Below are positions 26,301-59,287 of a DNA stretch of 64,000 bases, one piece after another; the first letter of the stretch is position 1, and each line of letters opens with the position of its first letter. The stretch spans positions 60,327,401 through 60,391,400 of the forward strand of contig CM055092.1 in the NCBI GenBank assembly GCA_029204225.1, given 5' to 3'. The position numbers were made by a program, and so were the translations under genes. The DNA comes from Diphasiastrum complanatum (taxonomy: Eukaryota > Streptophyta > Lycopodiopsida > Lycopodiales > Lycopodiaceae). The notes below the pieces were generated by a model. It was not told the origin of the DNA. It saw only the letters and a program-made list of their open reading frames with translations, and ran no database searches.

Positions 26301-26398
26301 AAGGAACCTTCTTAGTTCTCTAAGGCCTTCGAACGATTGAACCTTGAGCATAATCCCTTTGTTCTGTATCTGAACTTGTTGTTCTTTGCACTGGTTGA

Positions 26399-26830
26399 TC
26401 ATGAATGATTGTGAGGCTCTGTACGATTTTCCTCCACTGTCTTGGTCTGTGCATTCAGAAACACCACTGTGTGCTCTTCATAATCGCTATCCTTCATATC
26501 CAATTCCTTGTAGTGAGTTTCTTCTTCTCTGAACTCCACATCATGTGAAACAAGTATCTTCTTTGTTTCAGGATTGTATACTCGATAGCCTTTCTGATTG
26601 CTAGGGTATCCCACAAAAATACCTTTTGTAGCACGTGGGTCTAACTTGTGTTTGCCAGCACTAGTGTTGATCACAGAAAATAAGCATCCAAAGGTTTTCA
26701 AATGTGTCAGATCTGGTGCATGTCCTATCCTCAGCTCTCTTGGTGTCTTCCAGTCTAGTTTCTCAGCTGGAGATCTATTGCGCTTGTTCTGATGCTTTCT
26801 TTGGGTGGAAATTGAATGTTAATGTCCCCA
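26399..26830 (-). pseudogene. Integrase C-terminal remnant of the 24.5-kb copia element
   Basis: Encodes the post-core block KTFGCLFSVI, then FVGYPSNQKGYRVYNPETKK and the VSHDVEF turn typical of copia integrase C-termini. Nothing of the HHCC or DDE core is found to its right; the protease end of gag follows within about 100 bp. Confidence 0.85.
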
Positions 26831-26889
26831 CTTCCAGTTGCTGAGACATACGTGTTGTCTCCCATAAAGATTTGAATAGGAGGTATCAA

Positions 26890-27620
26890 TTACTTCATTT
26901 TTATAAACAAGCTGAGATCATGCGTCATATGTGAAGTAGCACCTGAGTCCAGGAACCAGTCCTTGCTTGACTCCACATCAATAGAATTCATGATGTCTTC
27001 CCGATCTCTTTGTGGATTTGGTGTAACCTTGATTCGAGCCATACGAGAGCACTCATCTTCCATCATTAGTGCTTCTTCAGCTACTTCTAGCTCCTCATTT
27101 TTAGCGATATTGGCCATTTCTTTAATGTGCAGACCCTTCATATTTTTCAGTTGTCCCTTCAATGGGCATTCTTTCAGGAGGTGATCAAGGCTATCACATA
27201 GATAGCAACATCTTTCCTTCTTCTTGAAATCCTTCTTAAACTTCTGTGAGCTCCTGAACTCGTTCTTTCCCTTGCTGTGGCTACCCTTCATGAGAAGCGC
27301 AAGTTCTTGCCCTCCTTGAGGTTGAACCTTACTCCTCCTCAGATCTGCTTCAAGTACTCTTCGAATGGCAATAGATAGCGTCAGTTCGTTTTCTCGCTCA
27401 TCAGCATACTGCCCTTCAATCGTAGCAATGAGAGATTCGAAGAAACTTGGTAGCCCTGCCAAGAACATGCAGGCTAGCTGTTTTTCTTGATCTGAAATCC
27501 GATGGCTGCAAGCTTTCGTGCTGTCTGCCGAAAGCGATCAGCATAAGCACTGGCGGTCTCTCCTTCTCCCACCTGCATGTTTGTGACGCTGCAAAATGAT
27601 CCTTGAGCCCAATCCAGTTC
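26890..27620 (-). pseudogene. Gag and protease start of the 24.5-kb copia element
   Basis: 27468-26890 is open for 192 codons: ending the gag domain (FLAGLPSFFESLIATIEG), then a basic region, the CCHC knuckle CYLCDSLDHLLKEC at about 27212-27171, and the protease site WFLDSGATSHMTHD at about 26960-26919. Upstream, 27620-27470 continues gag in another frame (ASAYADRFRQTARKL). The first third of gag is absent: the sequence begins within gag right next to the 5' LTR. Confidence 0.88.
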
Positions 27621-27873: not shown

Positions 27874-28347
27874 TAATCTTGACAGTTTAATTGTCTCAGG
27901 TTTAATGTAGGTTGCTGACTTAGAGGTATGCTATTGCTACTTGCTTAACATGTTCTGATGTGCAATCCTTCTGAAATCGTTAGATTGTGGCTACTATTGG
28001 TGTATACCCAGTGTAATTTCATGTCTGTAATATAGTTTTCAGCTTCTGAGGTAATTTGTTTTCACTAACTATCACTAACTAATGCGAGGTAGTTTTATTT
28101 GTAAAGGACATGTTTGCTGAAGTCTTCAAATGTGTTTGCAGGTCACCATTTCGGTATTTCTGGCTTGTGCGACAGTTCACTTCATTTTACACTAGACAAG
28201 TTCATTACAGGAGAGCTGATACATCCTATTTTAGTAAGTAGCAGGAGTGTTCTGCTGCCAGAGAACGACATTTTTCAAAGCTTTTTCAAGCTCACTGCCC
28301 TTCCCAAGACCACTTGCACCAGAAAGTGCTTCATAGCTTGCCTGATT

Positions 28348-29406
28348 ATGGCTCCCCATGGTCCTCTTTTGCGATGTATTGGCAATGTGCTGCACATTCC
28401 TCCTCATTCCTGTCATTTTTCTCACAATTTAAATGGGGCTTGTAACCAGGACTCGCGCTTGAAAGTCTTTGAGGATACGCTTGAGATCAGACTCCATTCT
28501 TTGACTTACATCGAAGAGTCACATGTTTTAAGCTTAGAATGGCTAAAAGATGCCTTGGAAGTGTTAGTAGCCACAAATGTGGATGCACAGGCTTTCATTC
28601 CTGCAGTTCACCTTCCTTTGTCAAAAAGGGATGAGAAGTGGATAAGGGATTATCTGGAAGATAGCTCAAGTGTTCTATATACATGCAATATGATTAGAGA
28701 GTACATTGCAGGAATAGACAACATCCTTATGCTTGTCAAACTGACTTTGCATTTGCTAAATTTGCAACCTGGTTCTTATAAGAGTGAGCTTAGACATGCC
28801 AACGACTCACTCTATGAGTGTGTCAGAGCTCTGAAGAATTGGACAGAGAACATCTATGACAGTGTGAAGGGGAAGTCTAAAGGTCATCATTTGATAGAGG
28901 ACATGCCTAAGCCCATTCTTATTACAAAATCAGAACCTGTTCCGAGAAAAAATGTATTTTTGACTGTTTTATCTGCAGCAAAACTGACAACCATTGTTAT
29001 CTGCAATACTGTGGTCACAGCTTTCACTAGTCAGAGAGATTCCCTTGTAGAGGTATCTGTGCCCGAGTCTTTTGCTTGGTCTCTCCCCCTTTTGACCCTA
29101 CAAAGAACAGTCAAATCAGTTATAATCAAGAGGATGGACAAGGGGCTGAATTTTTTCATTCCAGAACTGTGCAATGTGGAGTTTTGTCTGACAAAGTTGA
29201 AGGCTCTTCTGGATAGTTATGTGAACATTGATGTGGTCACTCTTGAAGAGGAGTTGACAGAGAAAACGTCTAACTTAGTGACTGACTTGAAGCATCAATC
29301 AGAAGGACTTGAGAAGTTTTTAAAATTATTAGAGGGCAAGATTGACAGGCTCTTCCACTTGACAATTGAGAATCGAAAGTCGTTTCTTGATAAGTTGAAA
29401 GGTTAG
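28348..29406 (+). CDS. BYPASS1/ROH1-like protein (UPF0496/PF05633 type)
   Basis: A single open exon. The first ATG in frame is at 28348, giving 352 residues to TAG at 29404. The frame is open further upstream to a likely 3' splice site TGTGTTTGCAG ending at 28141, so an upstream exon or 5' UTR intron is probable. Family features: an N-terminal helix with ESHVLSLEWLKDALEVLV, then LPLSKRDEKWIRDYLEDS; a central hydrophobic stretch near VFLTVLSAAKLTTIVICNTV; and a C-terminal helical part ending EGLEKFLKLLEGKIDRLFHL. BPS1 proteins limit a root-borne growth signal and ROH1 proteins bind exocyst Exo70 subunits; the role here is unknown. Length fits the family (350-400 residues). No frame damage is seen. 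A copia element sits 475 bp upstream. Confidence 0.8.
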   Translation: MAPHGPLLRCIGNVLHIPPHSCHFSHNLNGACNQDSRLKVFEDTLEIRLHSLTYIEESHVLSLEWLKDALEVLVATNVDAQAFIPAVHLPLSKRDEKWIRDYLEDSSSVLYTCNMIREYIAGIDNILMLVKLTLHLLNLQPGSYKSELRHANDSLYECVRALKNWTENIYDSVKGKSKGHHLIEDMPKPILITKSEPVPRKNVFLTVLSAAKLTTIVICNTVVTAFTSQRDSLVEVSVPESFAWSLPLLTLQRTVKSVIIKRMDKGLNFFIPELCNVEFCLTKLKALLDSYVNIDVVTLEEELTEKTSNLVTDLKHQSEGLEKFLKLLEGKIDRLFHLTIENRKSFLDKLKG

Positions 29407-33746: not shown

Positions 33747-33779
33747 GATTAAGATCAACAGACGGAGGCAGTCGACAAA

Positions 33780-35480
33780 TCCGGTGTTCGTCACACGACA
33801 CCACACGAACTATGGTGGGGTAGAAAGCCCAATCTGATGCACGTTCGGATCTTTGGTTGTGTCGGTTATGCACACGTTCCAGATAAGCTTCGAAAGAAAC
33901 TGGATGAGAAAGTTGAACAAGGATACCTCGTCGGGTATGACAATCATTCATCATACTCCAGGATCTACATGCCAGAGACCAACAAAGTGAAGACCGTCAG
34001 AGACGTCAAGTTTGATGAAACCAGAACAACGGCCAATGATGATTTTGTCAGCTACGAAGTCTTAGGAAAGCACTACTACGACCTGTCATCCGTGACAGAG
34101 GGAGAAGACCGCAAACACTCAGAGAAAGATGTTCGGATCCCACATCAACTGAGCAATGAATCAAACAAAGAAAGGACCGCAAGCCTGCCTACAGCTAGAA
34201 CGTCATTAAACCACAATGGTTCCGCACCTAGCCGAAAAGACAAAGGCAAAGACATTGTAGTACCTGAAGAATCTCCCAAAAGATCAATAAGAGAACGAAG
34301 AGCGCTAGCTAGATTCGTGCTAGGCAACTCAGCTTCGACATCTAAATAGTTCTACGGATTCAACGATGACCGCAAACCTACGAGGAAGCCATCAATAGTC
34401 CCAAAAAGGACAAATGGGTGCAAGCCATGAATGAAGAGATCGAATCCATGAAGAAGAATGAAATATGGATGCTGCAACCAGTACCAGATAAGTGAAAAAA
34501 TTGTGCAATGCAAATGGGTATAAAAATTGAAGTACGGACCGAATGGAAATGTGTCTAGATACAAGGCCATACTTGTAGCGAAGGGTTTCTCTCAGAAGTA
34601 CGGTATCGATTACACAAGTACCTATTGTGCTTGCAAATCGACCACGACTATGCCGAAGGAAAGCTATACCTTCATCAGTCTAGGTACATCTAGAAGATGC
34701 TAGATGATTGCGGGATGACAGGTTGCAAAGGGACCAATAGCCCAATGCTTGCAGGAACAATTCTGACAAACGAAGATGGTCCGAAAACTGATGAAGAGAA
34801 GGAGGCCATGCAACACACATCTTATAGGAGGCTAATTGGATCATTGATGTATCTAGTAGATAACACGCGCCCCAACATTGCTTATACTATGTTTAGGATG
34901 AGCCAATTCAACATGAACCCAGGTCCTATACACTAGAAGATTGCGAAGCGAATCCTCCTGTACCTTCAGAAAATGAAAGATTTTGGGCTGTGTTACTCCC
35001 GTGCTGTCAGATTTCAATTGCACTCCTACAACGATGCAAGTTGGGCATCACTCAAGGATGACTGTAAAAGCATCTCAGAAGGGTGCACCATTGCAGCAAG
35101 GGCAGCCATTCTCTAGGTCAGCAAGAAACAGACCATCACCACTCAGTCATTTGGCGAAGCAGAATATGTTGTAGCCGCCAAGATGGCCAACGAGATCACA
35201 TGGCTCAAATAGTTCCTCGACGGACTGGGTGAAACCACCAACGAGCCTCTAATGCTGCAAATGGACAATACATCTGCCAAATACTTGACGAAGGATCTCG
35301 TGTTTCATTCAAGGATGAAACACATTGCAATCAAATATCATGGGACCTAGTCGAGAGGAACGAATTGAAAACCACCTTCATTGTGGAACGAAGCAGATGG
35401 TAGCCAACATCTTTACTAAGCCCTTAGACAAAGGGATGTTCAAAAGACATAAGACGAGTCTGGGAATTGTAAAACTACCA
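33780..35480 (+). pseudogene. copia-3 integrase C-terminus, RT and RNase H remnant
   Basis: 33837-34349 encodes the integrase C-terminus (RIFGCVGYAHVPDKLRKKLD, GYLVGYDN) and the linker to RT. Broken RT N-terminal peptides follow (VAKGFSQKYGIDY near 34574-34612). After a deletion that removes the YVDD part, 34697-34936 encodes the connection (RRLIGSLMYLVDNTRPNIAY). RNase H follows to about 35400 (SKKQTITTQSFGEAEY) with a TAG at 35210 and a frameshift near 35340. It ends with IFTKPLDKGMF. Confidence 0.86.
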
Positions 35481-35829
35481 CGCTTTGAGAGGGAGCTGAA
35501 GAAACTTAATGTTTCTACTCCCAAAGCTTTGATAGCATTCGAGTTCTTGTCTGTAGAAATGCCCGGAAAGGACCTACAGGTCTTTGTATCTGTAGAAATA
35601 TAAAGGATTGCCCACATGCAAAAACTGCCCCAAAATAACTGCCTACATAACGGTTTCAACAAAGGCCAAGACCCGAAGACACGAAGGTCAAACGAACGAA
35701 GACTCGAAGGCATTAGGGGATATTAGAACTCAAAATGAGCCCTTTGTCAAGATGCTTTTTTTTACTTTGCATGCTTTCACAACGCTTATGTATCCCAATC
35801 AATGGTGGCCATCTATGACGAATTGTAAC

Positions 35830-36640
35830 AGTGGCTCCAGATGATGTAGATGAAGTAGATATTGATATAGGAGTTGAATTTGAAGCTTCTATGGCTTCAA
35901 ATTATTAAAAAACTCCTTCTCGTTCTATAGACCTCTCTGACTCTCTTCCATCTGCAACTCCTATTAATCCATTAACTCTACTCGATGTTCCTGTATATTT
36001 TATAAATAATGACAGTTATATTTCTTTTAATGATATAGAAGATGTTTTGAATCTGAGAGAGGATGAAATCCTCTCAATTTTTGCACAAAATTTGCTAGAA
36101 TTTTCTGACATTATTGATTACACATGTAATGACCTTGAAAGTGAGATACATTACGATAAGGATGGCAATTGAATTTTTTTTTTTTTGGCAATGAGGCATT
36201 GGAGGCCATTATTGAAAAATCGAAAGCCTATGAAAAAACTTTGCCTACAGAGGAGGAATTTTTGGAATTCCAAAAAGAATATCCCCCAAGGACTCGGTAT
36301 ATCGCCTCGAGCAACGTAGAGGCCATTGGAGGACATGACATTAGCTTAACAAACGTCGTTGAATACGATGATGATGATTTTGTTTAGGAGGCCATACGTA
36401 CGCCAGAGGAACATATAAAATAATTTTTGTGAAAAGAGATTTGGCCATTAAAATATTGGGTTATACTCCCAATGAGACTTCAAAAAGATCATCTGCAATG
36501 GCCCTTTATTCGGGTTACATTGATATGAGCAAAAAAAAAAATTAGAATTTTTGGATCCATATGAAGGGAGATTATTTCTTCATGACAATACCATTCGTCT
36601 GAATCTTGAAGAGGATGATGATGAAAATTAAACAATCTTC
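35830..36640 (+). pseudogene. Companion gene P2 of copy A, unknown function
   Basis: I do not recognise this gene. It starts close to the left inverted repeat. The first segment encodes an acidic protein (LREDEILSIFAQNLLEF). It is interrupted by a TAA near 35906, and the frame breaks at a T run near 36175. The next segment, 36169-36387, encodes KTLPTEEEFLEFQKEY and a DDDD-rich tail. In a shifted frame the C-terminus has SAMALYSGYIDMSKKK followed by LEFLDPYEGRLFLHD. The same C-terminus occurs in copy B at about 45700-45832 (SSHFALYIAYVDLSK, LLDPYKRRKLLHD), so the peptide is conserved between copies. It converges on the transposase gene. Confidence 0.6.
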
Positions 36641-36730
36641 TATAATAGATTATTGATATATTACACGGATCTCTCTTTTGTTATGAATTTGAATGCCTTA
36701 CGAGTTTTTTTTTTTTTTCCAAAGAGTCTG

Positions 36731-38718
36731 TCACTTTTTTTCAATGGTGACATTCCCTTTGTATAGTCCTGTCTTTGAAAAAACTTCTTCCAACCTCTTA
36801 ATAGCTGCTTTAGCCACAGACTCCGGTTTATGATTCCATGCAAGGAGAATATGCAGATAAATAAGTCTTTCAATAATACGAACCTCAACATGCAATGTGC
36901 ATATGTGAACATTTTTTAATGGAATTGGCATGACACTTTTCATATTTGGATCTTCTGCTTCTCGTGTTGGGCCAGTGTTTGGTTGTCCCAAATTCATATT
37001 GTAGCAATCCTTCATGCAATAAAGACATGGATGCTTTGATGTAGCCCCGTGACAGACATTATACATAGATTTCAATTTTTTTAAATCGCTTGCAAGGTGC
37101 CATTGAATTTGAAAACTTCCATGGTTTTCAACTGAAAATTTCTCACCCTCCAAATGTCTCTTTATAATATCGCTATAATTTGTTCGTGAAAATATCCATG
37201 AAAGTATTTTATGGTCCTCTTTCAAGACCTGTAGAGAAGCAAGTAATGAATGACACGTTAATAAAAAATGGCTAAGTATAAAATGTTAATAACGATACTG
37301 AAAGAAAATTGAATTGTATACCTGGAATGCTGCGAACCACCATATGTGATTTTTCGATTGAACACTAAATGTTCGATCATCTGTATCTGAAATTTTGTTC
37401 ATCAAAGTGAGACTGACTCGTTCCAACTTTTGACCTTTGATGATTTCGGATTCATCCAATTTTATTACAATAATGATCTTTTCATTTACTTGATGTTCGG
37501 CTAGTTTATAGAATCGAATAATGTATTTTAGAACAATTTCAAAATCAAGAAAAATATTATTGCAATCGTTGTAATTGCACTCACCATATTCTGATTTGTA
37601 TCATTCAGTTATATGAAGTGGTTGGCCAACTACTTTGAACATTTCGTCATTATAATAGTTTCTTGCTAATCTTACCGGATATGGACAAGAAAAATATGTT
37701 TTCTTCACCATCACTTGAGAACAAGCTTCTTTAACTAATCTAAAAAAAGTAGAATAAGCATTTATGGTAATTCCATAAAATCACATGCACCTAGTATCAC
37801 ATTTGCATCCAAGTAAGTTTGAACCTTATTCAAAACAGTCTCTGCAATTTCATTTTTCATTTTTTCAAACCGAGCATTTTTCATCAATGCCTTTGCTGAC
37901 TTTCTTGGTAAAACATGACTTATAGAAGATCCGATGCATGAACGATCTATTAAATAGCTCTTTGCCACCAAACATGATCTGCAACATACATATAAACTCA
38001 AATTATGTTTAATAAACTGATAATGCATATTATCAAATGCAAATGAACGTTGTATGACCAATACAAATCAAATAAACTGTTCATAAGAAAACATACTTCA
38101 ATGCTCGAATTCTTCTTCTTTTTTATTGTCGCTATGTGTAGATAAGTCATCAATATTCTTCATCGGTACTCTCTTTCTTTTTCTTTTCATCGTTGCCTTT
38201 TTTATAACTTTTATATCAACAATAGATTTTAAACTGTTGGATCGCAACTTCTCCATGGATTCTAACATTTCTTGATTTGATCCCCGAAGAGTAGTGACAG
38301 TAACATTCATCTCTGACATAGCATTCTTGAGTGCATTGTTTTCAGCACTAGTGTGTTGCACATAATGAACCAATTGTTGATTTGCACGTTGCAATTGTTG
38401 ATTGGCAAACTGTAATTGCTGATTAAGACAAGATATGCTATGCATTCCAATATCATGCAACCTTTGACAATATCCAAGTAATCCGGTATTTCCTTCACAT
38501 ACAAATCTGAGAAGATGAGTTACAGACTTATCTGGACACAAATTGGTAGCTGGATCATTAGGATAAATTGATCCATCCACCCACAAGTCTATATTCTTAT
38601 GATTATTCATTCTCAGTTCTCTAACTATTACAACAACATTCTCTACAACATTCAAAGTTTTCTTCATAATTGGAGTGCATTCCATAGGAAGTGCAACATG
38701 CAAATGGAACATTGCCAT
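36731..38718 (-). pseudogene. Putative DDE-type transposase of copy A
   Basis: Likely the enzyme that moves this element. Exon 1 (38718-38098) begins MAMFHLHVALPMECT, then carries DLWVDGSIYPNDP and NTGLLGYCQRLHDIG and a glutamine-rich coiled coil, and ends in a basic/acidic tail. After a phase-2 intron exon 2 (37979-37322) encodes CLVAKSYLIDRS, GACDF, and the first acidic motif KLDESEIIKGQKLERVSLT (Asp codon at 37454-37456). After a 93-bp GT-AG intron exon 3 (37228-36731) encodes HLASDLKKLK (Asp codon at 37085-37087), the Cys pair HPCLYC and TLHVEVRIIERLI with a candidate Glu. The Asp...Asp...CxxC...LH layout is that of RNase H-fold transposases with a zinc-binding insertion. Damage: TGA at the end of exon 1, a -1 offset after GACDF, a stop near 37600 and loss of the C-terminus. 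Confidence 0.65.
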
Positions 38719-39099
38719 TGTTGAAAGCTAATCCGTAAATGCTTCAAACTACAATAAGTCAAACTGAATAGATCTAGCATACCTTACTTTTGTAATGTCT
38801 ATGTCGCACTGAAAAATCGTCTTGTCTCATATTTCACTATAATCATACAAAGATTTCAAAAGTGCTCATTGCACTCCCGCTTCAGTTTTTGTAGTGAGCA
38901 CACCAAAATTTACAGTCTTAAAGCTCTAGCCTCGAATTTTGAAACGCGCATGTAGAGAAGTTATTACATCTCATGCTTAACTAACTAATGTCTGAATTTA
39001 ACCATACTAGTTAAACATCGGACAAGGCCAAAAACTGGGAAAGCGACGACCAAAAGTTACCAGTTTACATTCTCTCTCTACGTAACCTCTCTCTAAAGT

Positions 39100-39143
39100 G
39101 AAATTTCTTAAAGGGCCCATTTTGAGCCCATATTTCCCCTAAT
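39100..39143 (-). repeat. Right terminal inverted repeat of copy A
   Basis: Complement reads ATTAGGGGAAATATGGGC and then TCAAAATGGGCCC. The left repeat at 35712-35750 and the repeats at 43945 and 49028 share this pattern. Confidence 0.85.
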
Positions 39144-39890
39144 GCGAAGACCCAAAGTTCAAAGACTGAAGGACCTCAAAGGGGAAGCCAAAGGTCGAAG
39201 GAAGACATAAAGCCATGAAGCTTGAAATACCCAAAGAACGAAAAATGGTGGATCTTCACGCTCCAAGTACAAAGGAGATTAAACAAAATACCAGGAGGAG
39301 AACCACCTCCACGGACAATGCCGACGACAAACTGAGTGCCATTAGAATGTGCTTAACCAGCCATTCTTGTAATCAGTGATTAGACTAAACCATTTCTCTC
39401 AATCCATATATAAATAGGACGAACATGAGAGAATCGATTGAACATCAATGTGAGCTAGGCATAAAACTGCCAGCCGATGTCCAAGAGTCTGCTAGTAAGC
39501 GAGATTGTCTGATATAATTCGTGAGAGACATAGTATCTCTTACGCCGACGCGTTGGGTGGGTTTGTCACACGGTGCTCAAGAAAAGATCATTGACAATAC
39601 AGTAGCTGTAATACAGATATTTTTCTTTATCTTGAATGATATCGAATGCTTTTATGTCTGATCGTTGTCAGTACATGTTCAACTGTTTATTCTTATTCCG
39701 CACACTGGCTCATTCTTGTTGAATGCTTAAACAAATTTTTTAAAAAAATGTAGGTCAACAGTGTCTACCTACACTCTAGAAGATTGTAGATCTTATCTAG
39801 CAACAGTAGCTACCAGTTAGATTCAAATTCTATCCGAGTACAGTGAACTCGTTGTTCGTGCTAAGATACACATCAGTTGTATCAGAGCTA
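39144..39890 (+). other. LTR-like DNA with TATA box and copia-type primer site
   Basis: The A/G-rich DNA resumes here after copy A with repeated CGAAGAC/CAAAG words like those before 35712. A TATA-like CCATATATAAATAGG is at about 39401. TGTATCAGAGC at 39878-39888 resembles the primer site TGGTATCAGAGC with one base missing. It may be a 3' LTR of copia-3 or the start of a further element; it shows no similarity by eye to the DNA before 32952. Confidence 0.4.
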
Positions 39891-40042
39891 TCAAGGTTGA
39901 AAGAGAAGAGAGTGCGAACGCGAATCCCTTTTGGTTTTATTTCGTGCGACAATAGCCAATCGACCTCATCAACAGACTTTGGTTGTAGCTTTAGTGGCTT
40001 CCAAGTCCTCTTCTTTTTGCAATTGTTTAATAATCCACTACC

Positions 40043-40339
40043 TCATATTTTGGTATTTCTAGTTTTCTGAGTTGAGATTCGGATACACCCCTGATGTAGT
40101 AGTTGTATTAGTAGATGGCATAGATTCAACATGTGTTGGATCAATTGGAACCTCTTTCTGCTTCTAAGCTCTAGTAACAACCAAAAGATTTTGAGAAATC
40201 TGACTGGATCAGATAACTCATTACACTTTGGTATCTCTAGATGAGGTGACCTTGTAACAATAATTGGTGGAACATTCAACCGAGGTAAAGGTGGTCCATT
40301 AGGTGGCCCATCAGGTGGTCCATCATCTATATCAAACAT
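40043..40339 (-). pseudogene. Possible retrotransposon gag fragment
   Basis: A 98-codon minus frame has a Gly/Pro-rich head (DDGPPDGPPNGPPLP) followed by IPKCNELSDPVRFLKIFW. This resembles the start of LTR-element gag domains of the 'DPxxFLxxF' sort. No zinc knuckle or polymerase is near. Weak assignment. Confidence 0.35.
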
Positions 40340-41682
40340 CTTTGTAAATTACTTCAAAAGGACAATGAGATTAGATCTAGATTTTTCAGTTAACTCCTAT
40401 CTCTGATCAGATCTATAAAAACTCTATCACTTGACAATAATCAGATTTTTGATTTTTGGGAAAAGGATCTTGATCAAGCGATCAACACTTCTAAACTAAG
40501 GATTTTTCTAAATCAACATCAAATTGTAAGATAACGTTCTAGAAATTTGACAGTGGCTGGATCTAGTAGATTGAAACTCAAAATTGTACTGGTGGCGACG
40601 GTTTTCTAGGCAAAGGTTGACTCGGCATAGTAAACTAGCTTGAGATTGCCAAATGAGCTCCAAAAATATTCTATTTTCTCACTATGGAGAGAGGGAATAC
40701 ATAGCAAATTCGACTTCCTTCTTGAAGTTAGGTGGATTTCCAGCATGTAACAAGGAAGTTAACTCACTCTCCTTCCTAGCCTAGATCCTAGAGTTATGTT
40801 TGGTAGGTAGCTAGTTGGTCAAATTTTCACCTTCAACTTAGGTGTAGGTCCTATAAAGTAGGGATGACCACCAAATAGACATGACCAACTCTCTTGACTT
40901 GACCTAACCTATATTAGGAGTGGGTTGCCATGTGGCATTTTGGCCATACATGTGTGGAACCCAATTACGTACAAAATTTACACTATTCTTCATGGATTTT
41001 GATCAAGCTAGATTTGTCAATTTTTGGCAATTCTTCACAAGATGAACAGTCACTTTAGCTTTCTATTTTTGGTATTATTCTTCGTCGACCTGACAATAGA
41101 TAGATCTGAATCACACCTATGTCCAGTGGAATGGGCGAAGGTTCTTTTTTTTGTTTTTTTAGGTTTTTCAATGGTTTTGTGATGCTTTTTGTTCTGTTTT
41201 TGCAAATCTATTGGGAATTAACCTTTGCCCTTCAAACTAAAGATTCAGTGTATGAAGATCGTGCTGTGTGCAACTCGACGAATGTTCTTTTCAACAAAAA
41301 AATATCAAGACTCATGACGATTTTGCCTCCTTTTTCACCAAAATGATAGAAATGATCAATTTTCTTTGCTTTTTCTGATTTCTCAGATCCAAATGGATCT
41401 CAAGAATGGTGATCTTTATGGATTCCCCTACTCAACAATCAAAGTAAATTTCAAACAAGAAAATACACTCAACTCGAGAAATGGATTTAGAGATCATAGA
41501 TAGTTGATACTGATTAAATATTCATCTCACTTGATGTGGATGAGACACATGTACAAATTTTTTTAATAGAAATATATTTTCAGTTTTTCAATGGTTGTTC
41601 TTACTTGTTTTTTTTTCCCTGTTATTAATTCATGTTATGATTCATTCATTTCAATTTCTATGGTTTTTCGACAAGTTTGTTT
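40340..41682. other. Intergenic DNA, no gene seen
   Basis: About 1.3 kb of AT-rich sequence with short frames only. It lies between the gag-like fragment and the hairpin element. If copy C once had a transposase it should lie in or left of this stretch, but I see none. Confidence 0.45.
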
Positions 41683-41883
41683 TTCATGGCCTTGGTTTGC
41701 CTTGTCTTTACCATGGTTTGTTTTTTTCGGATAAGTTCAGAAAGATGATCTGATGAAACTTTTGCCACAACCAATCCAAACATGTGACAAACTTAGATTT
41801 GTTGCAACAAAGCTTTCATCAGTTCATTTTCTGAACATATCCAAATATGCCAAGACAAGGACAATATAGAACAAGGCAATGAA
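41683..41883. mobile_element. Hairpin MITE-like element
   Basis: A 201-bp inverted repeat. The left arm (TTCATGGCCTTGG...GGATAAGTTCAGAAA...CTGATGAAA) is matched by the complement of the right arm (TTCATTGCCTTGT...GGATATGTTCAGAAA...CTGATGAAA). Arms are about 80 bp around a loop of about 35 bp. No coding capacity. Confidence 0.7.
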
Positions 41884-41959
41884 GACCAAAAATACAACCG
41901 ATATATACGAGACATCAACAAGGACAAGCGTCGATTGTAGTGGTCACTGGAGTTCAAGT

Positions 41960-43530
41960 GACTGAAGATCTCCCCAATGAAGACAATCTCCCCAGTGCAT
42001 TTCTTGCAGGAGACAATGAATCTTGTTATCGAAAACTCATATTATCTAGTTGCAATTACATTGTGTTTGCACCATGGAAATGGAGATCATAGAAATGAAA
42101 GCCTCATAGAAAAAGTGATTCATATATTTTCAAAAATGATGTATACAAAAAATTGTATTACATAATGCAAAATTCTATAGTTCATAATGTCTTTGCATTT
42201 TATATACTCTTCATGCCTTACTCTTACCTGCACAAGAGAAATTGTTTTAGTTAATATATTTTATGAAACCGATTCACTTAGAAATAGAAAAAAAAGAACA
42301 TTTTTATATGGCATAACGTACCTTTACACCATTCAATCAAAATTGATAGTTTTGAAATAGATCGAATTGCAACATGTCTAGTTCTGATCGAATGTGATTG
42401 ACACACCAATCTTCCTCGACCTCAGCCATTGCAAGAATGCTGTGATTTCCTTTTCACTGTTATCTGAAGTTGCTCTTGAGAGTTTGTACCAAAATCTTGA
42501 TCAAGTGGCTTCCAAACATTTTTGTATTCAATCCATCTTCTATAATATAGCAGCAAAGTGAGCATTTGTTTTTCAATGTGATATCTTAATGTCATGGATG
42601 AGTAACATACTCTACACTCAACTTGCTGATTTTGTTTTGTATCCCAACCATCATCCAACAACTCGGCGATTATATCAGCACTCAAGTCCTTACAAATAAA
42701 CCTTGTTTTCATTCTCTGAACATTGCATTTGAGAAAAAAATCAATAAAAATAGTAAAAGGTAGATACCAACTTAATCTATTATTCTTTGATCCAGTGCTA
42801 CATTTTAATATACTTTGAATATCAATATATAGCCTAGATCGAAAACTTTTTGAAATTGCTGCATCAGGAGAAATCCATTCCTCACTTGAAAAATCTAATA
42901 GAGGATATGGCTCTAATCTATCAACTAAACCATTTTTATCAGGAAAATATGTGTAATCATAAAAAAAAACTCCTGAGTCTAAAAGTGATTTTGGAGAACG
43001 ACCTTTATATTATAAAATACCGATATCCGAATGTATGACATCGATTATTCCTGCAATCGATTGAACTGATTGCCATTCAACGAAATTCGATGGATACAAA
43101 TATGCAAAACCAACAAAAACATCTCAAGAAAAAAATAATTTAAAAAAAATGCTAAATCTAAAGAAATTGAATCTAAAAACTTACAATTGCATTTCCTTCT
43201 ATCATTTGGCTTCAGATCATGAATGAGCTCATTGTGAAGCATGTTGAACTAAAACTTTCGTGATAGATTGACCGGCAAGTGATACTTTAAAATCTATTAT
43301 CCTGCCTTTCCAAGAGCTTCTATATATGTTATCCAATCTTTTTCTTTTTTGAAATGAGCCTTTTGCAGAGGATGCATCAAGATCCATTGATATTTTTGAT
43401 ATATTCTTGGTATCCATTGATCTTCTGCATTTTTTTCATTGCAAATATTGATTTCATCAATGGTTCCTCTTGGTCTCCGATTATGTGTAGCCGTTAGCCG
43501 AAAATACAAGTACGCAGGCTGAGATCGGAG
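41960..43530 (-). pseudogene. Companion gene P1 of copy C, unknown function
   Basis: I do not recognise the family. Exon 1 (about 43509-43230, with a frameshift near 43300) encodes DQWIPRIYQKYQWILMHP and a basic stretch, then LVQHASQ. A later exon (42712-42340) encodes IAELLDDGWD, VECRVCYSSMTLRYHIEKQ and KPLDQDFG. A GT-AG intron near 42320-42230 leads to an exon starting VRVRHEEYIKC. Copy B has the same peptides in the same order with an intron at the same place (CTC|GTAAGT ... GCAG|GTACTTAAAAG). No catalytic motif is evident. A DNA-binding or accessory role is only a guess from its repeated association with the transposase. Confidence 0.6.
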
Positions 43531-43945
43531 AGAATGTAGAGATTGCGAGGTAAACCTAAGAATGACAATCCAAAATAAGAGATAGAATGAAGAAAATGAG
43601 AGGTATACCTATGAATGACAAGACGTTCCTAAACTACAAGAATTAGTTAGCCACAGTTTATGACTATTGACGTCAAATTAACCTCGAGTGAACAATGACG
43701 GGCAGCATAAGAGGTATTCGGGCAGTAACTGTGGTCCAATCGCAATCGTTTGTTCTGCCCGGCGGGATATTTGAAAATCATGAAAATTTGGCCGGGAAAG
43801 TTAAATACAATTTCCGTCCGTCAACCACTGTTACAGTTCATCACAGATGGACACCATTCATTAGGATACATAAGCGTTGAAAGCGTGCGAAGTCAAAAAC
43901 AACATTTTGACAAAGGGCCCATTTTGAGTTCTAATATCCCCTAAT
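41960..43945 (-). mobile_element. TIR transposon copy C (inverted, truncated)
   Basis: A left-type end in inverted orientation lies at 43945: the complement reads ATTAGGGGATATTAG. It stays close to the copy A left end for about 115 bp (shared AACGCTTATGTATCC and CTGTAACAGTGG or TTGTAACAGTGG). Inward from it lies gene P1 on the minus strand. The other end is not found: the element stops next to the hairpin element at about 41.9 kb. It sits inside the coding part of P1 of copy B. Confidence 0.7.
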
Positions 43946-43949
43946 GAAT

Positions 43950-45265
43950 CGACTATGTGCTTCTATTCAACGAGACAGATGATAATAAATTATGGGTGCC
44001 AAGAAAATATTCAAAAAACTCTTGGGTTTTGATGCATCCATCATCAAGAGGAGCATTTCGAAAAAGGAACAGGTCAAAACTATCATTTCGATCTTATTGG
44101 AAGGCCATAATTTTGGATTTCAGAACATCATCAGGAGGAAAATCTAGTTCTAAAATTTTAGTCCAACATGTATATATGGATTCAGAGATAAATGTTTAAG
44201 GATTCAACCGTCAGGATCACAAAAAAAACAACTGTGAGTATTGATATTTTTGATACTTAGATTTTTGTCATTCATAAATATCTAATAGTAAACTTGCCAA
44301 TCTGATCATTTTTCTTTTGCAGATTTATATCCATCTAACATAAATGAATGGAAGCCGAGTGGATCTTTAGCAGGTGTGTTAGATGTTATTCACACTAATA
44401 TTGGGCAGTTGCAATATCGAGGTAGAACTGCAAAAGATCTAGCTGATATTGGGATCTTTTTTTATGAATCAATGTACATTCCTGATACAAAAGAAAATTT
44501 TGGACAAATAGTACCAATTCCATTATCTAGTTTTGAAAGTGATGAATGGATTGCACTAGATGCTACAGTTTCAGAATCATTTTGTTGCAAGATATATAAT
44601 ATATAAAAAAGCTCATTAAAAATGAGCACGAGATAAAAAACAGTCAGATTGAGTTGATCAGATAGTTTATTATCTGAACTTATGGATGAAGGTTAGGACA
44701 AAAGATCATATGGAGAAATAGAATGCAGAATTAAAATGTCTTCCATGTGCTTCCGTTATCAAATTGAAAAAAAAAAATGTTGAGCTTATACCTCCATTAC
44801 AAAGATGAAAAAAAAATAAAGGTAAATGGGTGCCACTCGATCAAGACTTGGAAGCCAGTGGACATTCAAAACCAAAAAATATTGAAATTATATACAATGA
44901 TGCCATTTTGACGTGTGTTGAGGTGGAAGACAGGCGAGAACTATTGCTCCCGCAAGATGATGTACTTTTAGACGTCAAATTCATTTTCAATGGTAAACTC
45001 GTAAGTAACTGTAAACACTTGATCTTTTATGAATAGTTTCAATCAAAACTTTCTAATGCAATCTTTGTACTAATTGGAACTAACTTTGTATTAGTTTTAT
45101 GCAGGTACTTAAAAGACATGAGCTCGAGATCAAATGCAGAGATATTGGCGAAACAATCCAACTTATGGAAGAACATTGAGATTCACTATCAACAAATACA
45201 TGCCAATCATCATGTCTTTTTATCAATATAGAAAATTGCATTCCAATATTACACCATGGACACAA
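43950..45265 (+). pseudogene. Companion gene P1 of copy B, unknown function
   Basis: Exon 1 remainder (43957-44199) encodes LWVPRKYSKNSWVLMHPSSR and LVQHVYMDSE, matching copy C. After an intron (acceptor TTTTGCAG at about 44322) the next exon encodes NINEWKPSGSLAGVLDVIH and PLSSFESDEWIALDATVSE, and stops at 44604. Further exon 44826-45000 encodes VPLDQDLEASGH and an acidic region; donor GTAAGT at 45001, acceptor GCAG at 45104, last part from 45105 (LKRHELEIKCRDI). Stops occur in several exons, so it is decayed. The function is unknown. Confidence 0.6.
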
Positions 45266-45355
45266 CTTGATTGTAAGAATCTATATTGATATCAATAAAA
45301 AAAAACCCATAAACGGGTTGTTTACATGTAAAATGATTGTATCTTTTTTTCTTTT

Positions 45356-45652
45356 TTATGTATCTCTATTTACAAATAGATCTCTAATCAATTTTTCTAT
45401 ATTTTCTTTCTTAGTATTAGGATTTAATAAGGGAACAGCTCCCTCTATAATCTCGCTTTCCTCTATTTCGAAAAGGGCCTCAATGCCTTTTAAGACAAGA
45501 GGACTCTCTGTTATAATATTGTCTTCATCTGTATTAGGAAGGACTTTTATTCTTTTTCTATCATATAAAATAAGATCTGCATCTTGAGCAACCTGAAAGG
45601 CTGTTAAGGCAGGAGCAGCTTGCTTTTGAGGGGCCCTTGATCTCAGGTGCAA
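45356..45652 (-). CDS. Unrecognised 98-codon open frame inside copy B
   Basis: An undamaged minus-strand frame amid broken genes. It starts MHLRSRAPQKQAAPALTAF, is then acidic (NTDEDNIITESPLVL, EIEESEIIEGAVPLLNP) and ends KLIRDLFVNRDT. It has no counterpart in copy A or C that I can see. It may be an exon captured by the element, part of another insertion, or a third element gene. The sequence has no membrane segment or known motif. Confidence 0.35.
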   Translation of the reverse strand: MHLRSRAPQKQAAPALTAFQVAQDADLILYDRKRIKVLPNTDEDNIITESPLVLKGIEALFEIEESEIIEGAVPLLNPNTKKENIEKLIRDLFVNRDT

Positions 45653-45654
45653 CT

Positions 45655-45832
45655 CTTACACTGTTTTGGGCATAGGGTCTGATCAACTCTTGCCGAAATC
45701 TACAGTGAATTCCATGCTCAAATCATCTCATTTTGCATTGTATATTGCTTACGTTGATCTGAGTAAGCATGAAAACTATGAGTTGTTGGATCCATACAAA
45801 AGAAGAAAATTGTTGCATGATTCTAAGTTGTA
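45655..45832 (+). pseudogene. C-terminal remnant of P2 in copy B
   Basis: Encodes SSHFALYIAYVDLSK and LLDPYKRRKLLHD, homologous to the C-terminal part of P2 in copy A. The N-terminal part is missing; the preceding 400 bp are unrelated. Confidence 0.55.
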
Positions 45833-45879
45833 ACTTTCATTGGAAAAAATATCGGAAGCATAGTAGATACTGCTGAATT

Positions 45880-48560
45880 GTACTTTGTAAATATTTTTAT
45901 TTAATATACAAAATTTTATTGTGTGTCTATAGCCTACTGGCTTGTATAAATTTGCATGCTTTTTGAAATTTTTTATAATCCGTCAATTTTGTATTATGAC
46001 GAATTTGGATTCTTCTGTAAAACCATTGGAAAAGTTGCAGTATATAACTGTTTTTTGTGCTAGTCCCGCCATGTTGTGTACTTTTATGAAATGTCGTGCT
46101 TTCTTGCCAATGAGATTTTTCCATTCCTTGCGATGACCATATGCTAAGACTTCCACTATTTCTTGCAAAGAATGTCGAATGATGTCGTAATATGTGCTGC
46201 ATGTCATAAAAACATAATCTAAGAAAGTACCAAAAGTATCTAATTTAATTGCAAATATTTGTCTATCGTAGTGTAAAATCAAAATCTTATCATATAATGT
46301 GTTATATGATCAACACCCCATGCACTTTGAACTACATCCACAAATTCACTGGTTGTTTTCTGTATCATTTGTACATCAGTATTTGAAAATTTATCTTTTC
46401 TCAAGTATTTCACCATGTTGTCTAACTTTTTCCAAACTTCTACTTTGTGTATACGAGTAAAATCTTCTTCTTCGAAATCTTGAGTTGCTACAATAATTTC
46501 TTTCCAAACCGTGTATTGAACCTTGGATTGTTTGCCAGAATAATTTGATAAAAATTTGCGAGCTTTATATCCTCCAATGCTCGGCTTGCATGGAATATTT
46601 CATGTTTTACTTGATAGCTTGTCATCTTTTTTTATTTTAACTTGGCCTTTATGTAAGCCTGCTTTGGACAACACAACCTCTAATATGAAAATAGCTTTCT
46701 TCGTAGAGGCCTCTAACTCGGAATTCCATGCAAACAAGATGTGAAGATATATTATTTTTTCTATAATACGCACCTTCGCATGCAATGTACAGATATGAAC
46801 ATTTTGTAAAAAAATCGGTAGTACAGGTTTCCAATCACGATCTTCTCGATCTCTTGATATTCTTACATTGATCATACATTTTAATGTGTTCAGATCTCCT
46901 GCTAAATGCCATTCAATGTTGAAAGTGCCAATTCCAGGAATATTGAGTCGAACTCCCTCCGTGTGATTTTTTATGGTGGCAGGATATGTTCTATTAAATA
47001 TCCATGAGAGAATGTTATGGTCTTTTTTCAGCACCTATAAGAGAATACAAAAACGTGATTAGCCCCATAATATTAACACAGAGAAGGTTTTAGATATGAA
47101 ATCCATATTCAAATGATTATCCCTATTTATTATGTGAAGGAACTGCTATATCTGAAATGCTGCCAACCACCAGATACCATTTTTTGATTGAACATTGAAA
47201 TTGAGGCCTTCTGAGTCTTCTGAATTTGAAAGTGCTCCATTCATGATCGTGAGACTGACTCTTTCCATTTTTTGTCCTTTTATAATTTCAGACTCATCTA
47301 ACTTGAGAACAACTATCAACTTGTTATTGACATTCTCATTTGTAATATCGTAAAAATTTATGGTGAATGTTAATAAGTGAATAATGTCAATAAATAAATT
47401 GTTGGAATTGTTATAAGCTAGACTTTCTCCTTTCGAGCAATACACTTCATTGATATGAGATGGATTACCAACTATTGTCTGCATACCTTGGTTTAACATG
47501 TCTCTCTTTTTTAAAGATGAAATGGTCGTGAGATTGGAAACGTTTTAGTATTTACCTGTGCAAATGCCTCCTTTATCATCTTAAACATTGTTGCATATGC
47601 TTCCTACTGATGCTAGAAAAGTCACATGCCCCTTGAAGCAATGTAGTGTCTAGTATTTTTCCAACTTCATCCATAATGCTATCAATAACTGAAGCCTTAA
47701 TCTTTTTTTCATTTTGTTATTATTTAACATTGATTTCATAGATTTAGAAGTCAAGATAGAGCCTAGTGAGTTTCCAATTGAAATCTCGTCGGCCAAATGG
47801 TCTTCAACAACCAATGCTAATCTGCATTGCAAACATAATGTTCATGAAAATGTCAGTAAAAATTAAGACACTCATAGTATTCACAACAGTATATAATAAG
47901 CAAATCAACAGAAAGTTGAAATGAATAAATAACAAAATTAGTGCTTATGAATCAAAAAGTTCAAGCAGTATTCAATACGAAAAAGCTATAACTTACTTGA
48001 ATGCACGGATTCGTCTTTTTCTATGACTCCTCTGGATGATAGATCACATATATCCTTGTTTACCAGTCTTTTCCTTTTGTTGCTTTGGACCTTTTCTGTT
48101 GAGCACATCCATATCTTTAACAAGAGACAAATATAAGATACACATGGATTGAAATGCAATTTTTATCTCATCATTACTAGTTGTATAATGATGCAAAGAA
48201 GATTTCAACCTTTGGATCTCCTTCTTGAGCATCTCATTTTCATCCAAACAAGTTTTCATCTTTGTAGATTTTTCTTCGCACTCCTTTGATATTTTCCTTG
48301 ATTCCTCTTCCAAATAATGTATTCTTTGCATTGAATGTGCATTCCCATAGAGCATCAAATTCTCACAGTAACCCAAAAGGCCATTTTTACCATGACACAT
48401 ATAGATTATTAACTGACTCACCGAATGAAAATCTGGATGTTGCAATGAACATGGATCGATAGGATACAATATTCATGATGACCATAAATCTACATGCTTT
48501 AGCTTTTCCTCCCTGTATCGGACCATATCATAAGTTGACAATTTGGGTTGCTTTGAATTT
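45880..48560 (-). pseudogene. Putative DDE-type transposase of copy B
   Basis: Paralogue of the 36.7-38.7 kb gene. Exon 1 (about 48560-47997; longest open part 48469-48044) carries NGLLGYCENLMLYGNAHS and a Glu/Lys coiled coil. Exon 2 (from about 47820) carries LALVVEDHLADEIS, GACDF, EAYATMFKMIKEAFAQ in the -1 frame, and KLDESEIIKGQKMERVSLT (Asp codon at 47296-47298). Exon 3 (47034-46600) carries IEWHLAGDLNTLK (Asp codon at 46894-46896) and TLHAKVRIIEKII. It extends further than copy A: SIGGYKARKFL and QSAWGVDHITHY follow in broken frames to about 45.95 kb. Damage: an in-frame TAA near 47509, intron 2 donor AT in place of GT, and a deletion removing the CxxC segment present in copy A. Confidence 0.65.
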
Positions 48561-48984
48561 CTTGTCCTGAGCGGAGCATATTCTGGTTACAGATCCACAT
48601 GAAGATGATAAAGCTTTGTCATCAGTACAATAGTATAGTAACAAACAACACAATAGCAATAACAAAGTTGGAGATGGCACTAACGACTCTGTTGGAGATA
48701 GAGATGGCGCTAAACACTTGTTTTTGACCCTGGAGATAGAGATGGCGTAGGCTTTGTTTTAGAAATGTCACTCCTAATTCAAATTTTTGAGTGTTCCCAA
48801 CTATTGGGAGGGAATATTTCAGCATTTTGAAAATTCTATTTTAACTATGGTTAAGCACCAGTGAAGTTTGATGTGACTAAACTAAGGTGCATTCATTTAC
48901 ATGGAAAGTAGTGCGTGCAGATGCGTAAAGAAGATAGAAAATGATATTATAATTACTTTATAGTTATTTTTCTCTCTCCTACAT

Positions 48985-49028
48985 GGCATTTCTTATAGGG
49001 CCCTCTTTGGGCCCATATTTTCTCTAAT
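48985..49028 (-). repeat. Right terminal inverted repeat of copy B
   Basis: Complement: ATTAGAGAAAATATGGGCCC followed by AAAGAGGGCCC. It aligns with the right end of copy A (ATTAGGGGAAATATGGGC). Confidence 0.8.
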
Positions 49029-52000
49029 GATCTAGGTGTGAATTTGAAGGTGTGGCAAAACTAAACAAATTTCGCAACTTAACATTACAGAAATAAATCA
49101 GTTTGTAATGTTTTCGTATAGTAATCCTCCTTAACTTAACAAGTTATACAACAAATTGAGGAGAATAAGCTCACCTGAATCCATCCACAACAATAACCGT
49201 GTTAGAACAAAGAAATTATTGTGGGAACTACAGGTGTCAAAACTTATTCTCAGTTGTTATCCACATCACAATTTGATGTAAAAACTGCGAAGTAAGGATT
49301 TTAAAGTAAGAAGTATAAATAATAGCTTTTATTTCATACTATTTACAAACTCTTCTCAACTTTTTTCAAACTCTTCTCCCATGCTTCCAATATTATTCAT
49401 AATATTTAGGTAATTGCCCATCACTATCATACCAATGTAAAAAAGTAGGCAAATATTATAGGTAATAAAGAAATTAGTAAAGTACTAGTAATTGACGATA
49501 TAACTAGAAAGGTAGAAGAACCCAAAGTTCCTCAAAGCCTCTTAAAATCCACTAGTTATAGGTTGTGCATAGTCATTTCTTACTGACTATCATCAAAATA
49601 CCTCGTTTTGCTTCCCAAGTAAGTTTATTAATTAGCAAACAATGTCTGTTTCGATAACCTGCATGTAAACCATAATCATAATAGAAATACATGTCCTTTT
49701 GCCACAATTCATGCAACATAGGACCTCCCATGTAAATTTATATCATCAATATATCACAGTACGACCCTTAGTGCTTCGTACGTATCCAACAACTTTTACT
49801 CAAATCAGTAGCATGTGCGTGTTTCAAGAGATTGTAAAATTATAAAATTAGATGGCTTGTATTGCATGACTTCATTGAGCACCATATGATTTTACAAAAT
49901 ACAAAATACAAACCCATTTTGCATGACCATTTAGATTAAGTGTATAATCAAATGCTATATAAGTGATATGAGCATTCGAGTACGTTTTAACCTAAGCTCA
50001 ATGTACTCATATGTTCTTCAGTCCACCAACAGTATCTATTGTATGGTCTTCTTGGTTATCAGAATAGAAAGGGTGATAGCCACATACTGCAATAAGTTTA
50101 TATATTTTTTATAAAGTAACGTCTTGCATCAATTAAAAACTTAATCTGTAGACTGCAATGCATAGGGCATCAACTATGTTTATAATAGGCAAGTCTCATT
50201 TCTTAACCATTTTTCAGAACTTGTTTAACTTTGGATAATATAACTTAGTTTATCCAAAATAGCATTTTGAGTTTTTTTATGGTACTCTGACCATTGTTCC
50301 TTAATGCCTATTTAACATAAAGTAGTACGTGAAGTAATGTAAAAATAGGTACAATAGAAGGAACAATTCTATTCCAAGGCCTGTAGTAGTCAAAATCAAA
50401 AAATGTGCAGTGACTATTTGCATTATACAGTCTATTTCAGAATTCTATTAATACAATTTAGTCTGAAAAGAACAACAAAAAAATTGCTAGCACTGCCATA
50501 TGCCAAATTCTAACTGTCGTATCATGTTATTCAAAACCATGACCACTTGCCACGTGGCCAAAAGAGTAACATATTTGAAAGTAGGCAGCATAAGTCAATA
50601 GAAACGCATAATTCTTAAACGGGGTTCTGCATGTATGTAAGGGTAGCATACCCTGAATCATGAAAGTCAACAAAAAACCAAGCCCCTTCTTTTTAAAGAA
50701 CTTCTATCAACTTATCAAACTAAGTCCATGTTAGACATCTGCAATAGTAAATATAGATATAGACATCCACAGTTGACTATCAGTCAGAGACAAAAAAAAA
50801 TCAAACTTTTTTCAAGGCAAACAGAAATCTATTTCTTTAACTTGCTATTCAGAAGTCATTTTTCAAATAGCACATTTTTTGTATTCAAAAATCTACTGTA
50901 ATTTTTTTTTTTTTTCTGAAAAATACCCACAATAGATTTTTGCCTTGGCAGACACCGCATATTTTAAATATCAGATCATGTTATTAAGAAACATGACGTA
51001 TTCTTAAAAATTTTCAAACCAGTCAAGACATTCGAAGTGAGCAATAATTAAGAATGATGTCCAAACTGAAATAGTTGATAGTTGCTATATCTTCTAGCTA
51101 ATTTCGATTGCTAATGACAAGGTTGATTAAGTAAGTCTAAATATATTATTCTTGTTGAGGAAAACATTCTTTTCATAAATATAGAATAAAAAATCATTGT
51201 TTGAAAGAACATTGAATGAGCTTTGTAAAATATTTGAGATCTTTCCACAATGTTAGTGTTTGTTAAAAAAAGTTAGTTGTTAGAGAGCCATCTTTTTGAT
51301 CAAATGTAAGGTGTCAAAAGAAGAGGTGGTGATTTCCCTCTCAATTTTATAAACTAGGAGATTCGCCTTTCTCCCAAACGCCAATGCAATATGAAAAATG
51401 AAATTCGAAGTTGCGATTTGCAAATTGCCTTGAAACATCTCAAATAGTGTACAAAGCTTGCCCAATGTTCTTTCAAACAATGGTTTTTTACTTTGAAAAC
51501 AATCGTTAGTATAGAAGCATAGTAAATTGACAAATTTAGGTCATGTATATGCACATATAAGCTTCCATTAGTCATACTTACAAGCTGATGTGTCTATTTT
51601 GTTAAGATGCTTGTACAATTTGGAAAATGAGTATCTCCCATTTCTCCAAAGCAAAATACCAATGATTAGTTGCATGGACTTATGATCAGCCAAAATTTTA
51701 AAGGTGCACATATCACTTATAAAAAATGGTCAACTAACTTGTTCGAAAAGTTCTTAGCAAAAAGAGCTTAAATGTTTGCTACATCATAGAAGAGTGTTTT
51801 CTAGAGGCACATTAAAATGGAAATTTTTTTGAAGAGATTTGGGGACTATTGTAAATCTTTAAGTAGATCATATCCATGTGCTATACAATTTTTTATCACC
51901 AACAAATTATTTGAAAAAGTTAATTATAATGCCCTATGTAACATCAATGATCATTGTTTCATGTTAATAACAAAATGAACTCTAAGCATTGACCCAAAAG

Positions 52001-56400: not shown

Positions 56401-56615
56401 AATACATCTAAATTGATCACTGATCAGACAAATTTCCAAAAAAAAAACAAATTTCAGTTATGAGATTAACGCCCCGTGCCAAAATAGCTCCGTTTGAACT
56501 CTTCAATTTAAAAACTATGGTTACACTTCTCACAACATATGCATACAGAGAACGAGATCAACTTTACATAAATACCTGGAAACTCCTTGCTGCTTTCACA
56601 ACAAAAAAGACAGAG

Positions 56616-57100
56616 AATAGAGAAAAACAGAGAATAAAAAGCTCGAACGTCCACTGATTGCTTGCAAATACACAACAAGCTCCGTCCTCTTACTACCAAT
56701 TTTCGCTCATTGTATTCCGGTTGATTCCAAATCTCCACTCCAAACCTCCGTCCTCTTCCTACCAAGTTCTGCTCAATAGCCTGATTGGCTGCACCTCTCT
56801 GCTGTAATCTGTCTCTGTCATCACTCTTCTACGAACTAGAACTTTTGTATGAAACAGAACAAAGAAAAATCAAGAATAAAAAGCTCCAACGTCTGTTGAT
56901 TGCTTGCAAACACACAACAATGTCCCTCCTCTTCCTACCAGCTTTTGCTCACTGTAATCTGATTTGTTGCAAATCCCCACTCCAAACCTCCCTCCTCTTG
57001 TTGCCAACTTCCGCTGACTAGCCTGATTGGCTACAACTGTCCGCTGCTATCTGTCTTGCTAGCAACAAGTCCGCTACTTTTGTACATGAACACGCACCAG
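56616..57100. repeat. Diverged tandem duplication, period about 242 bp
   Basis: GATTGCTTGCAAATACACAA at 56656 recurs as GATTGCTTGCAAACACACAA at 56898. ACTCCAAACCTCC recurs with the same period, as do TAGCCTGATTGGCT and ACTTTTGTA. Confidence 0.85.

Positions 57101-58685: not shown

Positions 58686-58795
<110 letters not shown>

Positions 58796-59136: not shown

Positions 59137-59140
<4 letters not shown>

Positions 59141-59186
<46 letters not shown>
59141..59186. repeat. (GA)n microsatellite
   Basis: About 45 bp of uninterrupted GA repeats. Confidence 0.97.
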
Positions 59187-59188
<2 letters not shown>

Positions 59189-59287
59189 CAAACTACAACG
59201 ATAGGTACAATTTCAATGCTCTACAGGTGTTGTTAATGATAGAATAGTTATGGAGGATAAATTGTTAATGATAGAATAGCCTCGTAT

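Follow-up and report, generated by a model that had tools for sequence, protein, structure and literature searches.

The question raised by a 64,000-nucleotide stretch of the Diphasiastrum complanatum genome (contig CM055092.1, C1:60327401-60391400, hereafter the window) is what transposon left three related elements there, and how it joins to its target. The elements, called A, 2, and 3, are members of one high-copy family with terminal inverted repeats (TIRs), and there is no target duplication at the three empty sites of the family that could be tested. A reading of the window from its letters alone (the sequence-only reading) had described at least three nested copies with a spliced, putative DDE transposase and companion genes. 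Three related elements are indeed there, but A has an internal deletion, only a left-end fragment is present of element 2, and the left boundary given as 35712 moves to 35711. We think it likely that the family is of a CMCT-type lineage, an autonomous cut-and-paste family of about 8-10 kb that inserts without duplicating its target. The length of a target duplication reflects how far apart the two strand transfers occur, and it is usually taken to be constant within a transposase lineage. The CMCT clade, in the accessible part of PMC12730594, comprises EnSpm/CACTA, Mirage, Chapaev, Transib/RAG1, Plavaka, ESTA, and Lanisha, with target duplications of 2 to 5 bp and mostly 5'-CA..TG-3' termini.

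Empty sites and element ends

Copy A is inserted in a Ty1-copia element, and its two flanks directly adjoin each other in all 10 related copia sites that were fetched, 7 of them reading exactly AAGG^CGAA across the junction. The other three sites (L046, L047, and L050) have one base changed at most 4 bases from the junction, and L050 and L053 diverge from the copia sequence within about 10 bases past it. For the C13 element, the query was made of left flank L038 and right flank L066 with the junction at base 60, and the match spans the junction in all 40 places scored (of 892 candidates). Matches ending at query base 113-115 have lengths that leave no gap (for example, 109 on 109, 110 on 110, and 102 on 102), and those reaching base 119 lack one base, most probably close to the 3' end. 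The J026 query drew its left flank from an inverted piece, and that flank is in this sense a prediction. Of 40 places scored with the joined flanks (of 1354 candidates), 13 match 120 on 120 bases, and the other rows are mostly of equal length or off by one base, with one six short. No direct repeat of 1-10 bp, a range that includes the 2-5 bp of CMCT lineages, is found at A, C13, or J026, which are the three testable insertions, all A-type. The sequence-only reading had named target duplications as something to check in other copies; the finding that there are none at these three sites is new.

The junctions read G^C, G^C, and T^C at A, C13, and J026. Exact matches to the other 31 bases of the left end are preceded by the terminal C in 373 of 396 cases (17 of the remaining 23 have T), and the terminal G accompanies 199 of the 203 exact matches to the rest of the right end; with both bases near-constant, the outermost bases belong to the element. 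A 2-bp GC duplication around ATTA..TAAT ends would fit A and C13, and a 1-bp C duplication was also considered, but both are ruled out by the T^C site of J026 together with the terminal C count. The flanks examined (16 left and 13 right) reveal no constant target sequence; the base adjoining the element is a purine in 21 of 29, a weak preference.

Abundance and full-length structure

The genome searched has 1,744,706,496 bases in 5176 contigs. The left end CATTAGGGG has 373 exact 32-bp matches in it and the right end CCCCTAATG has 199 exact 31-bp matches, with 0 for the reversed-pattern control over the whole genome, which bears out the claim of a TIR family with copies sharing termini. With an exon of copy A as query, all 40 matches scored, out of 2687 first-look candidates, are 89-100% identical, the window itself being among them. 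The junction made by the deletion in A is unique to A among 40 matches scored for it. The alignment reaches the right end in 11 of the 20 copies fetched, and the flanks past it vary, except that L010 and L012 share one. The left ends fetched, from 13 places, all start with CATTAG, and L033 and L035 share one flank. The two terminal repeats are identical at 30 of their first 35 positions, as counted by eye.

Among the first 100 places listed for each end, at least five left-right pairs in matching orientation were found by eye, 2.6 to 11.9 kb apart, of which two are equal in length and look like one duplicated stretch. A distance-based hunt yielded both ends for 1 of 9 left ends. Windows at the expected distance from C335, C9, C13, C8, C15, and C3 held no element sequence (C15 gave only a 29-base repeat match), the first C17 window held part of the element and no end, and the second C17 window and those for C6 and C24 gave no match. 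A second window for C13 did yield the right end, and that element is about 8.3 kb from end to end. The left end of copy J023 is at position 6782 of a joined stretch; an insertion interrupts the copy at 16749, and the exact right end lies beyond that, at C10:5003422. Minus the insertion, this copy is estimated at about 10 kb. The full-length element is about 8-10 kb, with gene 1 on the plus strand facing a four-exon transposase gene on the minus strand.

The companion genes of the sequence-only reading correspond to gene 1, seen as consensus frames of 272 amino acids (aa) plus an upstream exon (1a) and of 261 aa (1b), which may be one gene or two. Neither frame has a Pfam match above cut-off, and by analogy the product is probably an accessory protein, like that of the second open reading frame of CACTA elements. 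In the joined stretch J026 (L030 and L026), positions 4533-6108 hold a left end CATTAGAGG... and after it a sequence with about 65% similarity to gene 1, apparently a left end of B type. A protein search found further relatives about 60-65% identical in exon 3, several of them stop-free in the matched part, and no relatives were found in the viral and prokaryotic contig collections IMG/VR and GTDB.

Within the window, the ends other than the left end of A lie at 39144, 43946, and 49029. At 43946 a minus-strand element, element 2, has its left end, with arms of 69 nt (90%) and 55 nt (89%) complementary to the left end of A; element 2 is 88% identical to J023 over 2.5 kb. It appears to sit inside gene 1 of element 3.

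The transposase gene

A majority consensus was made from 14 copies, namely A and 13 of the 20 fetched; L013, L014, L017, L019, L020, L023, and L028 were left out, mostly as incomplete here or as near-duplicates of L015. The rows are not all independent, since L010/L012 and L015/L016 are near-duplicates. The consensus has an uninterrupted frame of 792 aa which requires four exons and three introns, and the intron claimed for A is one of these. Each of the 14 rows is itself broken, by 2 in-frame stops in the partial copy A and by 3-10 in the other 13. For introns 1-3, the donor is GT in 14/14, 12/14, and 13/14 rows, and the acceptor is AG in 12/14, 14/14, and 6/14. The last exon is supported by its conservation in copy B, the paralogous minus-strand gene of element 3, whose second intron has the donor AT.

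The copies differ from the consensus by 5.9/5.4/6.2% at codon positions 1/2/3, and such equal change is expected of decay after insertion. The A-type consensus and copy B, compared over 447 codons, differ by 34/24/54%. This bias shows that the protein was under selection while the A-type and B-type families diverged.

Residue pattern and proposed mechanism

In the 792-aa consensus protein, the candidate residues are D383, D475, C495, C498, H540, H702, H707, and E727, in the order D, D, C-x2-C, H, H-x4-H, E. The CMCT signature in PMC12730594 (accessible part) is D, D, and E with C(2)C and H(3-4)H between the second D and the E, and the consensus agrees with it in residue order and spacing. For mouse RAG1, the accessible part of PMC4914335 gives catalytic D600, D708, and E962 and zinc ligands C727, C730, H937, and H942. 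Spacings in the consensus and RAG1 are 20 and 19 for D-C, 3 and 3 for C-C, 5 and 5 for H-H, and 20 and 20 for H-E, while the first two Asp are 92 apart in the consensus versus 108 in RAG1. The D-D-CxxC-H layout of RAG1/Transib type that the sequence-only reading had seen is borne out. In 5000 shuffles of the 560-aa core, a loose version of the pattern arises 14 times and a tight version 0 times, counts that are a guide only, the patterns having been picked after seeing the protein.

The motifs claimed for the paralogous genes are located in both, except for CLYC, which is in copy A only. Copy B keeps every candidate residue except the two Cys, whose stretch it has lost. A different outcome holds for the Glu of RIIE, which had been taken as catalytic and whose spacing does not fit. 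The Glu with RAG1/CMCT spacing (H-x4-H-x19-E) is that of QGMEK in exon 4, which copy A has lost by deletion and copy B retains. On this pattern, the protein is a putative transposase of the DDE, RNase H-fold type.

In the mechanism we propose, the enzyme would be a CMCT-type transposase, like those of CACTA, Transib, and RAG1, whose second Asp and Glu are separated by a C2-H2 zinc insertion. It would recognize the CATTAGGGG/CCCCTAATG ends and excise the element by cut-and-paste. Both 3' ends would then be joined to directly opposite points of the target in a zero-stagger strand transfer, and because the joining points would be opposite each other, no target bases would be duplicated.

Database comparisons

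The sequence-only reading could match the protein to no named plant superfamily, and an NCBIfam search of the transposase likewise gave no match. Pfam matches below the cut-off, to HisKA_3, NET2A_C, and others in the coiled-coil exon 1, to BLYB in exon 2, and to CbiC and eRF1_2, were taken as chance, as were two matches of the exon 4 motif to the Protein Data Bank (PDB) at E = 1.3 and 1.6. Canonical CACTA transposases are found in the same genome by PF02992 (Transposase_21), e.g., L067 and L068, with 180 matches among 150 scored of 5471 candidates. PF02992 has no match to the transposase described here.

Weighing the alternatives

A number of results weigh against a CMCT-type family that integrates without duplication. 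With single exons and with the spliced consensus, Pfam gives nothing above cut-off, and phmmer at E ≤ 10 finds 0 matches of the core among PDB chains, RAG1 and Transib included, and likewise none for exon 3. Alignment by hhalign to two CACTA fragments of the same genome has a probability of 0.2, from profiles with two sequences apiece, too shallow to be informative. The third acceptor, before the Glu-carrying exon 4, is the least secure point of the gene model, with AG in 6 rows and AA in 5. Three of the 11 right ends have an altered base near the tip (L018 TAACG, L011 TGATG, and L027 TAATT, versus TAATG). The C13 and J026 sites are judged by match length, in which gaps that cancel are possible, and rows 1 to 6 bases shorter or longer exist. 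Two of the three tested copies are internally rearranged, A by its deletion and J026 by inversion of its left part.

The alternative that survives best, possible but on the unlikely side, is that the family is Lanisha, which is reportedly found in a moss. Lanisha was proposed in Repbase Reports 2020 (Maumus, McDaniel, Carey) and placed in the CMCT clade, and both the CMCT signature and CA..TG ends are present here. The duplications of 2 to 5 bp with which CMCT lineages are described (PMC12730594, accessible part) were not seen here, a weak objection in that the description is of the clade, with Lanisha named but not itself described.

That the family is a divergent CACTA/EnSpm element is improbable. 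CATTA is one base from CACTA, there are two genes, and four exons are what has been proposed for the ancestral CACTA transposase (PMC4158355, accessible part); a D-x17-C2C is also present in one CACTA copy of this genome, L068, as counted by eye. However, all 13 fetched left ends have CATTA and 0 have CACTA, and the 3-bp duplication expected from the same source is missing. PF02992 leaves the transposase unmatched despite its many matches in the genome.

Tyrosine recombinases and rolling-circle enzymes leave no duplication, and a mobilizing enzyme of such a kind, rather than a DDE-like protein, would agree with the empty sites. We give this little credence: inverted repeats some 35 bp long bound the element on either side, the DDE/zinc pattern belongs to the largest conserved protein found, and neither gene 1 nor the transposase gene has a Pfam match to such an enzyme, the middle of the element being not fully searched. 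If end joining captured excised elements at double-strand breaks, with no transposase reaction, there would likewise be no duplication. This is very hard to credit, as the A site shows no loss or gain of bases (nor do C13 and J026 by match length), all three elements are complete at their two ends, and the genome has hundreds of exact ends.

If the CMCT-type reading is true, strand-transfer geometry can reach zero inside the clade that gave rise to V(D)J recombination, and this would explain how annotation that relies on duplications could miss so abundant a family. The empty-site test makes the duplication question directly testable in other genomes.

Other features of the window

The features of the elements and their surroundings are collected in Table 1. 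ROH1-like genes, to which one of the neighboring frames has a match, are plant-specific, and this frame, like the copia and CACTA elements, is in keeping with a plant genome.

Table 1. Positions of the elements, their genes and motifs, and neighboring features in the window
Feature	Position	Strand	Remarks
Element A	35711..39144		both ends present; internally deleted; inside Ty1-copia element; no target duplication
Left end of A (CATTAGGGG...)	35711..35834	+	deletion joins left end to gene 1b sequence at 35835
Gene 1b remains in A (companion gene, 3' part)	35835..36636	+	from alignments and frames
Transposase gene of A	36731..38718	-	exon 1 ~38718-38104, exon 2 ~37978-37322, exon 3 37228-36731; one frameshift in exon 2 and TGA at 37601-37603; exon 4 deleted at ~36703
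Intron 2 of A	37229..37321	-	GT..AG
Second Asp and C-x2-C of A (HLASDLKKLK...CLYC)	37016..37099	-	CLYC at 37016-37027
Right TIR of A (...CCCCTAATG)	39110..39144	-	end reached in 11/20 fetched copies
Element 2, reversed left-end fragment	41470..43946	-	left end 43946-43825; gene 1a ~43500-42422
Element 3, B-type family	43947..49029		right end TCTCTAATG at 49029; left part cut off by element 2
Gene 1 of element 3, degraded	43948..45830	+
Transposase gene of copy B (element 3)	45927..48472	-	exon 4 in 45927-46244, exon 3 46279-47034, exon 2 part 47146-47544, exon 1 48044-48472
HILRHHSTFF...GSLSIWSSQGMEKSHW of B	46107..46196	-	H-x4-H and likely catalytic Glu
KLDESEIIKGQK motif	37427-37462 (A); 47269-47304 (B)
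HLA(S/G)DL motif	37070-37099 (A); 46879-46908 (B)
TLH..RIIE motif	36869-36898 (A); 46759-46788 (B)
Ty1-copia remains, apparently three elements	1728-3947; 24689-27537; 33753-35710 with 39145 onward		copia domains by Pfam at 1728-2582 and 33753-34349; middle one named by eye, its frame 24689-25219 without Pfam match; third split by element A
Open frame, probably transporter gene exon	8417-9334	+	MFS_1 match, E = 6e-17
433-aa frame	28105-29406	+	ROH1-like match, E = 1e-12
242-bp unit	56614-57056		1.8 tandem copies
Telomere-like ACCCTAA repeats	58521-58583; 58688-63635		several GT and GA microsatellites close by

Comparison with known transposons

Pfam includes a KDZ model. The KDZ-like plan raised by the sequence-only reading is not favored, there being no Pfam transposase match and no duplication, versus the 7 bp described for Kyakuja in the accessible text. 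Spy, of the ISL2EU/PHIS group, is a TIR transposon without target duplication, as here; it has a PHIS-type transposase and a fixed target, whereas this family has no PHIS-type Pfam match and its target flanks vary. A search by title and abstract start in the literature on duplication-free transposons of this kind found none describing this element, with most subscription papers and all of Repbase outside it, and is no proof of novelty. The novelty inferred from the window may hold, in that no named family matches by Pfam, NCBIfam, or PDB search, or may give way, in that the residue signature is that of the known CMCT clade (PMC12730594, accessible part).

CACTA/EnSpm elements have in common with this family TIRs, two genes, a multi-exon transposase, and CA..TG ends, and differ by CACTA in place of CATTA, by 3-bp duplications (PMC4158355, accessible part), and by the PF02992 match. 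In PlavakaB, the ends CATCA..TGATG are near the CATTA..TAATG found here and the CMCT motif is common to both, but PlavakaB has duplications of 2 or 3 bp, which are absent here, and is known from fungi (PMC12730594, accessible part). With the CMCT clade as a whole, the family shares the residue pattern and the CA..TG ends, and it differs in having no duplication, as against 2-5 bp, and in the absence of any sequence similarity found. We suggest tentatively, and stop short of favoring, that this is an undescribed plant lineage of superfamily level, with a RAG1/CACTA-type core and zero-stagger integration, which would make it a duplication-free branch of the clade.

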